NCBI RefSeq assembly: GCF_018141525.1
Contig: NZ_CP064655.1
Coordinates: 2,574,501 to 2,638,500, forward strand
DNA: 64,000 nucleotides
Reading direction: 5' to 3'
Source: Miltoncostaea marina
GTDB lineage: Bacteria > Actinomycetota > Thermoleophilia > Miltoncostaeales > Miltoncostaeaceae
In this document: in pieces, positions 49,625-51,269 of the stretch
Layout: each line of letters begins with the position of its first letter
How positions within the stretch are numbered: position 1 is the stretch's first letter
Notes under the pieces: model-generated
What the model was told of the DNA's origin: nothing
Database searches by the model: none
Seen by the model: the letters and a program-made list of their open reading frames with translations, nothing else
Program-made: the position numbers and the translations under genes

Positions 49625-50212
49625 ATGAGCCGGCGGCGTACGAAGATCCCGGCGACGCTCGGCCCCTCGACCGACGCCTCGGGCCGGCTCGACGAGCTGG
49701 TGGCGGCCGGGATGGACGGCGGGCGGATCGCCTGCGCCCACGACGCCCCGGACGAGTGGCGCCGGCGAGCGCGGGCGCCGCGCGAGCAGGGCCGGCGGGC
49801 GGGGCGCCCGCGGGCCCTGCTCGCCGACATCGCCGGGCCCAGGATGCGGCTGGCCGCCGACGCGCCCGACCCGCGCCGTGGCGGCCGGCGTCAACTGGCC
49901 GGGCCTCGCCGACGCAGGCGCGGCCGGCCGCTCGACGCGGCCCGGGCCGCGCCCAGGCACCGGCCGCGCCTGCGGGTGGTGGCGCTGAGCGAGGACCAGG
50001 GCGTGCGCCGCGAGCTCGCGATGGAGTTGGGCGTCGTGCCGGGCGCCCTGCCGCCGCGCCGCGACGACCTGTCGCTCCATCGCCGGATCATGCTGCGGCG
50101 GGCGCGCGAGGTCGCGGGCCTCGCGCCGGGCGACCTCGTGGTGTTCACCGACGCGCCGCCCGTCTCCTGCCCGTCCGAGACGACCCACCTCGCCCTGCGC
50201 GAGGTCCCCTGA
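49625..50212 (+). pseudogene. Decayed pyruvate kinase
   Basis: 195 codons instead of about 470. The start MSRRRTKIPATLGPSTDASG and LVAAGMDGGRI is pyruvate kinase N-terminal barrel. ALLADIAGPRMRL equals the conserved LQ-GPKIR region. Then a different frame reads AAGVNWPGLADAG, matching the conserved KGVNLPG segment, so a frameshift has occurred. The main catalytic barrel is missing. The tail RLRVVALSEDQGVRRELAME then VVPGALPPRRDD and LAPGDLVVFTDAPPV is the C-terminal domain. The gene cannot be a functional kinase. A TACGGT box lies 10 nt upstream of ATG 49625. Confidence 0.75.
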
Positions 50213-50685
50213 CGCGACCGGCGCGCGCCGCGGCGGGTGTCGCCTCCGTGCTCGCGGCCGTCGCGCTCGCCGCGGCCGGCTGCGCCGCCGACGGCGGCGA
50301 CCGCCCGACCGGCCCGTCGCCCCCGGACCGCCTGTCCGTGACCCTCCACGGCGGCGGCTTCGGCGGCTTCCGGGTGGAGCTCGAGTGCGTGGTCGCCGAC
50401 CGCGGGCCGTGCGCCGAGATCCTCGACGCCCTGCGCGCGCTCGACGAGGACGAGCGCTGCTCCCCGCTGGCGGGCCGCGACGGCCGCGCGGAGCTGGACG
50501 GGACGATCGGCGGCGACGAGGTGCGCGCCGTCGTCGCGCGCCGCACGGACTGCGAGGAGCGCGCCTACGCGCGGGTGGTCGCCGCGCTCGGCCTGGGCGC
50601 GCCCGACCAGCCGGCGAGCACCTCGGCCGCACCCACCAGGCCCGGGGCCACCGCGTCCGCGGCGGCGAGCGCCATCTCGTCGTAG
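50209..50685 (+). CDS. Lipoprotein, 158 aa
   Basis: A lipoprotein signal peptide (M)TRPARAAAGVASVLAAVALA ending in a lipobox AAAGC begins exactly at CTG 50209, inside a CTGA overlap with the pyruvate-kinase relic stop. The mature part is Gly/Phe-rich (VTLHGGGFGGFRVELECVVA), with a Cys pair and ERCSPLAGRDG; it resembles small secreted serine-protease-inhibitor-like folds but this is not certain. It ends 121 nt inside the convergent HAD gene. Confidence 0.65.
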   Translation: MTRPARAAAGVASVLAAVALAAAGCAADGGDRPTGPSPPDRLSVTLHGGGFGGFRVELECVVADRGPCAEILDALRALDEDERCSPLAGRDGRAELDGTIGGDEVRAVVARRTDCEERAYARVVAALGLGAPDQPASTSAAPTRPGATASAAASAISS

Positions 50686-51269
50686 GCCCCGGTCGTCACC
50701 GCCACGCACCGCGCGGCGCCGGCGCGCGCGCAGGTGATGTCCCGGGGCGTGTCGCCGACCACGACGGCCGCCGCCGGGCGGCCGTGGCGGGCCAGCGCGA
50801 CGGGCACCAGCTCGTCGCGGTGCTCGCGGTCCGAGCCGAACGCGCCGCCCCCGGGCGGGAACCAGCCGGCGAGGCCGGCCGCCGCCATCTTGGCGCGGGC
50901 GATCGGCTCGAGGTTGCCGGTGAGCAGTGCCAGCGCGACGCCGGCCTCGCGCATCAGCGCGAGCCCCTCCGCCGCCCCGGGCGCAACCGCGGGCGGCGGC
51001 GCCTCCCGCTCGAGGTCGGCGTGCAGCTCCACGGCGCGCGCGATCCAGGTCGCCATCCGGTCCGAGATCCGCTCGTCGGCCACGCCGTGGGCGCGCAGGA
51101 CGAGGCGGGCGATCTCCCGGTCGGTGCGGCCGGCCGGCCGGATCGCGGTGACGTCGCCGGGCGTGGCCGCCACGTCCCAGACGTCCGCCATCGCGGTCGC
51201 CAGGGCCGCGGTGTGCGCCGCCGGGGCGCCGAGCAGCAGCGTGCCGTCGATGTCGATCAGCGCGAGCAC
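50565..51269 (-). CDS. HAD-like phosphatase (phosphoglycolate phosphatase type)
   Basis: 234 aa of the haloacid dehalogenase superfamily. Motif I LIDIDGTLLLG (nucleophile D-x-D), cap domain (about 15-95), motif II ALLTGNLEP, and motif III/IV GRPAAAVVVGDTPRDITCAR with the metal-binding Asp. It dephosphorylates a small phosphate ester, substrate unknown. GTG 51269 is 6 nt after a TATCCT box (51276-51281), so the message is leaderless. Confidence 0.88.
   Translation of the reverse strand: MLALIDIDGTLLLGAPAAHTAALATAMADVWDVAATPGDVTAIRPAGRTDREIARLVLRAHGVADERISDRMATWIARAVELHADLEREAPPPAVAPGAAEGLALMREAGVALALLTGNLEPIARAKMAAAGLAGWFPPGGGAFGSDREHRDELVPVALARHGRPAAAVVVGDTPRDITCARAGAARCVAVTTGAYDEMALAAADAVAPGLVGAAEVLAGWSGAPRPSAATTRA

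Follow-up and report, generated by a model that had tools for sequence, protein, structure and literature searches.

A putative CTG start codon at the CTGA junction of a Miltoncostaea marina lipoprotein gene, and recurrent apparent CTG starts in its order

The pyk remnant and the lipoprotein gene

The DNA analysed here is a stretch of 64,000 nucleotides from the genome of Miltoncostaea marina (contig NZ_CP064655.1, positions 2,574,501 to 2,638,500), hereafter the window, in which a lipoprotein gene lies between the remains of a pyruvate kinase gene (pyk) and a convergent gene. Its features, in window positions, are:

49625–50212, plus strand: decayed pyruvate kinase remnant, made up of about 80 N-terminal aa of the barrel, a scrap in a shifted frame and the alpha/beta part of the C-terminus
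50201–50205, plus strand: GAGGT, a weak Shine-Dalgarno-like element with a 5-base match to AAGGAGGTGA, 3 nt before the CTG
50209–50211, plus strand: CTG, putative start codon of the lipoprotein from homologue alignment, overlapping TGA 50210–50212
50209–50280, plus strand: predicted signal peptide of 24 aa, with R3 and R6, a hydrophobic core and the lipobox residues A-A-G before the Cys
50281–50595, plus strand: predicted mature lipoprotein, beginning at the lipobox Cys and ending with the conserved ALGL at the C-terminus, as delimited in a four-species alignment
50596–50685, plus strand: C-terminal extension of 29 codons and a stop, reading through into the HAD gene on its antisense strand
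50565–51269, minus strand: convergent HAD-like hydrolase (Pfam HAD, E=3.5e-13), whose own conserved stop is lost

The pyk remnant matches the Pfam families PK (residues 4–77, E=3.5e-8) and PK_C (residues 105–184, E=4.2e-5). Its frame is still open from ATG to TGA and its GC3 is coding-like, yet roughly 280 aa are gone, the active site included, and from its sequence it is frame-shifted and catalytically dead. The scrap between the two PK parts reads VNWPGLADAGAAGRS in a neighbouring frame, matching VIWPGLAEAVTVGRS of a congeneric full-length pyk, which points to a frame shift in addition to the large deletion. The genome also carries a pyk paralogue of full-length size at C1:2212295.

The stop codon of this upstream frame (ORF 49625–50212), TGA 50210–50212, shares two bases with CTG 50209–50211, so that the junction GCGCGAGGTCCC-CTGACGCGACCG contains CTGA; remnant and lipoprotein gene lie on the same strand, with stop and putative start sharing bases as NTGA. 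Translation begun at CTG 50209 gives (M)TRPARAAAGVASVLAAVALAAAG-C25, and the resulting protein start, LTRPARAAAGVASVLAAVALAAAGC, displays a charged n-region, a hydrophobic core and a Cys-ended lipobox. Sequence and translation thus bear out the preliminary description, which had reported a clean signal peptide from this codon, in a CTGA overlap with the upstream stop. Its further claim that no ATG, GTG or TTG could serve the signal peptide also stands: among the in-frame codons scanned upstream of the lipobox Cys, no usable one was found. The in-frame NTG codons before this Cys are GTG at −11 codons, CTG at −24, CTG at −38 and, as the nearest ATG, GTG or TTG upstream of the leader, GTG at −175, far inside the pyk remnant and out of frame with it. 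The internal GTG at −11 would yield MLAAVALAAAGC, a leader of 11 residues with no charged n-region.

The overlap itself is commonplace. The two strands of the window (76% GC) hold 257 copies of CTGA, 156 of them followed by 100 or more open codons, and in 800 kb of the genome C precedes 108 of the 217 TGA stops of conserved genes, making CTGA simply the commonest TGA context; the same 800 kb contain 22 GTGA and 13 ATGA four-base overlaps. The junction is therefore not notable in itself, contrary to what had been suggested. A CTGA followed by an open frame is cheap, but a signal peptide is not: among the CTGA copies of the window, only that at 50209 opens a lipoprotein-like signal peptide. The GAGGT element carries little distinction, since 5.7% of all CTG codons in a genome sample have a Shine-Dalgarno match of at least 5 bases, as it does, and its spacing to CTG 50209 is on the short side.

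The lipoprotein frame itself has GC contents of.856/.614/.985 by codon position (GC3 98.5%). Mature-part identities are 51/57/52% among three species pairs, with no faster change than in the relatives, and both C25 and four further cysteines occupy columns that are invariant in the four aligned species. Like signal peptidase II lipoproteins in general, the protein combines a charged n-region, a hydrophobic core, a Gly-Cys lipobox and conserved cysteines; unlike the usual bacterial ones, it found no family in a Pfam search and has an atypical Ala at lipobox position −3, where Leu, Val or Ile would be expected. The product would be exported, cleaved before C25 and lipidated.

Start codons in relatives and history of the locus

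We compared the window genome (G000) with two congeners (G001 and G002) and with more distant relatives from other genera. The lipoprotein gene of G002 (LNEQ01000184) starts with GTG-TCG-CGC behind AGGAG, and the aligned codons of G001 read CTG-TCG-CAC behind a perfect AGGAGGT; in a more distant homologue (G008), the start is ATG. No canonical start codon occurs in G001 from the upstream stop to the hydrophobic core, and the N-termini of G001 and G002 align without gaps from the start codon onward (W-[WR]-S-S ... L-L-S-A). A CTG start is thus the only reading in G001 too, where it would replace the GTG of G002. The window protein has a shorter leader, so its N-terminus is matched to theirs on the initial residues (L/V-S/T-R/H) and the alignment opens a gap beyond them; at the DNA level, the opening bases correspond (CTGACGCGACCG in the window, CTGTCGCACCG in G001). 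In the homologues, about 30 codons separate the start from the Cys. This comparison with homologues, which the preliminary description had called for, favours CTG 50209. The Shine-Dalgarno sequences of G001 and G002 are strong, in contrast to the weak GAGGT of the window.

Synteny places the junction in context. In G001 and G002, the gene order is a full-length pyk, a small opposing zinc-ribbon gene, the lipoprotein gene, an opposing HAD hydrolase gene and a gene for a GGDEF protein; the syntenic pyk encodes 475 aa in G002, and its C-terminal region is full length in G001. The window lacks the zinc-ribbon gene, and its lipoprotein gene abuts the pyk stop. The downstream side has changed as well: the lipoproteins of G001 and G002 end in ...ALGL* and the HAD protein of G002 in ...AEVISGWL*, whereas in the window both ancestral stops are lost and the two 3′ ends overlap by about 120 bp. 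Within positions 50565–50685, each of the two genes has a 3′ extension read from the antisense strand of its partner. The HAD gene of G001 (G001:C1:889614-890293) matches in two frames, reflecting an apparent frame shift or an assembly error.

As we reconstruct it, the most probable history is one in which a deletion moved the pyk stop onto the original NTG start of the lipoprotein gene. In the ancestor, the opposing zinc-ribbon gene would have lain between pyk and a free-standing lipoprotein gene that possessed its own Shine-Dalgarno sequence and started at an NTG codon (GTG or CTG). In G000, a deletion would have removed this spacer while pyk decayed in place, and at the new join the remnant's stop codon would have come to overlap the lipoprotein start as CTGA.

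Apparent CTG starts elsewhere in the order

As an independent test, we compared 800 kb each of G000 and G001, which yielded 324 conserved coding pairs. At least eight of these pairs leave CTG as the sole plausible start in one species or in both; this number counts cases inspected individually for orthology and is not an estimate with an error rate. The eight pairs, with putative start codons, are:

rplJ: CTG in both G000 and G001
ABC ATPase gene: CTGA in both G000 and G001
Cys-rich protein gene: CTGA in both G000 and G001
DUF354-like gene: CTG/GTG
AEC-transporter-like gene: CTG/GTG
gene at 970–990 kb of G001: CTGA in G001, GTGA in G000
guaA: CTG in G001, TTG in G000
lipoprotein gene: CTG

Apart from the neighbours of the lipoprotein gene, these genes are presumably what their names say, having been recognised from sequence and not through a family search. 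In G001 guaA, no ATG, GTG or TTG precedes the conserved N-terminus, and the CTG aligns with the TTG of G000. Several in-frame CTGA junctions were discarded, as they either read CTGATG, with the next ATG as the start, or had another start downstream.

The clearest case is rplJ, which encodes ribosomal protein L10 and lies in G000 at C1:2787030-2787560 on the minus strand. Both G000 and G001 read GGAGGTGACACC-CTG at its start, and in all 30 genomes with the locus, from nine genera of the order, the predicted start codon is CTG and the GGAGGTGA in front of it is perfectly conserved. Among 46 genomes from other families of the class and phylum, none has CTG at the aligned codon: it is ATG in 32, GTG in seven and TTG in one, and the remaining six encode an L10 with a different N-terminus.

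Other genes display more variation. The ABC ATPase junction is CTGA in all three congeners. At the Cys-rich gene (C1:2594352 in G000), the junction is CTGA in G000 and G001, TTGA in G002, GTGA in G007 and G020, and ATGA in G011, and the next 59 codons of this gene contain no canonical start in G000 or G001. The start column of the DUF354-like gene across 20 genomes comprises CTG (5), GTG (3), TTG (3), ATG (3), ATC (4), CTC (1) and CTT (1), with three of the four ATC codons behind AAGGAGG; some of these genomes also have a canonical codon a few codons upstream, so that not each of them proves a non-standard start. Taken from these alignments, start-codon choice appears loose in this order of Thermoleophilia, with CTG as a recurrent putative start codon. 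Most CTG starts are accompanied by a strong Shine-Dalgarno sequence (rplJ) or by a stop/start overlap (the ABC ATPase, Cys-rich and lipoprotein genes), which suggests that context may compensate for the weak codon.

Unsupervised statistics did not single out CTG. At Shine-Dalgarno distance after GGAGG, genome-wide codon counts revealed no enrichment even of GTG at 76% GC. A blind start model, in which each non-standard sense codon was tried in turn on the 324 ortholog pairs, did not make CTG outstanding (strong hits: CTG 6, GCC 8, GGC 7), because upstream regions are also conserved; the model did not separate CTG from the controls.

We also inspected the initiation machinery in genomes of the order. 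Their initiator tRNA has the standard anticodon, CAU, and the standard GGG/CCC stem, and a recognisable IF3 is present. The anticodon-stem variant M1 of the initiator tRNA is a known route to relaxed discrimination against CUG (PMC11497404); since the order's own initiator stem is normal and lacks the M1 change, we rejected such a tRNA as the cause of CTG use. In G000, the gene encoding IF3 (infC, C1:1070239) offers neither ATG nor GTG ahead of the conserved N-terminal RINDAIR, and the only canonical codon there is a TTG that lies 17 codons downstream of the preceding stop; the infC start may also be non-canonical.

Interpretation of the junction and of CTG use

We regard it as probable that the lipoprotein is translated from CTG 50209, in an order that tolerates CTG, and that CTGA arose by the deletion that joined the gene to the pyk remnant. 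The initiator fMet-tRNA would read CTG 50209, so that the lipoprotein would begin with methionine; a ribosome ending at TGA 50210 may re-initiate at the overlapping CTG, or ribosomes may bind at GAGGT 50201–50205, or both. The geometry is identical to that of ATGA and GTGA termination-reinitiation overlaps, except that N is C.

The chief doubt concerns expression, given the decay around the gene. The Shine-Dalgarno-like element is weak. The native upstream region and the native stop are lost and the neighbouring pyk is dead, which would also fit a gene on its way out. The lipoprotein gene could itself be a pseudogene in G000, with CTGA as the scar of a deletion that took promoter, Shine-Dalgarno sequence and real start, leaving little or no protein. 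The frame-shifted remnant with its loss of about 280 aa, the absence of the opposing spacer gene from the window and the run of the lipoprotein frame 29 codons into the HAD antisense all agree with this. We nevertheless consider it unlikely, as the lipoprotein ORF is intact, retains every conserved Cys and a GC3 of 98.5%, shows no acceleration relative to the congeners and keeps an in-frame signal peptide right up to the junction; moreover, CTG appears to function in other genes of the order, and G001 offers no other possible start for its lipoprotein. As the ancestral stop is gone and the neighbour has decayed, weak coupled expression or incipient decay of the gene is possible.

Much less probable still are starts at other codons. 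GTG 50248 is canonical, in frame and 11 codons before the Cys, but a start there would shorten the leader to a stretch without a charged n-region, well below the length of known lipoprotein leaders; the residues before this GTG (R3, R6) resemble the n-region of the homologues, which start much further upstream, and we give this reading very little weight. A different non-canonical start, such as the neighbouring ACG 50212 or a codon upstream in the pyk overlap, or a sequencing error hiding an ATG or GTG, seems equally improbable. Near-cognate codons besides CTG do exist nearby, and the apparent ATC start of the DUF354-like gene behind AAGGAGG in three relatives attests to a loose choice of starts; yet CTG 50209 aligns with the GTG and CTG starts of the congeners, the genome assembly consists of one 3.37 Mb contig with 99.4% completeness, and the recurrence of the pattern across several genes and species cannot be explained by sequencing errors.

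For the order as a whole, we lean, with moderate confidence, towards a relaxed start selection in which CTG, and perhaps ATC, is used regularly. Selection would have fixed and maintained the rplJ CTG in at least nine genera, with L10 synthesis possibly held below that of L7/L12, encoded in the same operon, and the lipoprotein gene of the window would be an ordinary member of this set.

In Escherichia coli, infC starts at AUU. Rare bacterial CUG and AUU starts likewise have a near-cognate codon in place of AUG, GUG or UUG behind a Shine-Dalgarno sequence. In 36 groups of related prokaryotes, CUG replaced two of 61,358 ancestral AUG starts and one of 5,080 GUG starts (PMC5622118), and in a mycobacterial start-codon selection, CTG made up 0.03% of recovered starts and was not enriched (PMC4633059). 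Compared with these surveys, the eight or more CTG pairs inspected among the 324 of this order, and most of all the fixation of CTG in rplJ, are surprising. CTG initiation as such, which the preliminary description had proposed, is thus supported by homologues and by other genes, although the word “rare” that accompanied it appears wrong for this lineage. We found no report of CTG starts in Thermoleophilia in the open-licence literature.

Initiation at CTG is generally regarded as negligible in bacteria, and gene callers in common use generally accept ATG, GTG and TTG only. Standard gene finders would misplace gene starts in this order, that of an essential ribosomal protein gene included, and since CTG appears to be used repeatedly and to be fixed in rplJ order-wide, many N-termini, signal peptides and essential genes of the group are likely misannotated. 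As neither the initiator tRNA nor IF3 appears unusual on first look, the order may offer a natural system for studying how ribosomes discriminate against CUG. The junction of the Cys-rich gene, where CTGA stands in the place of the ATGA, GTGA or TTGA of sister species, would provide a natural test of re-initiation codons, with A, G, T or C as the variable base.
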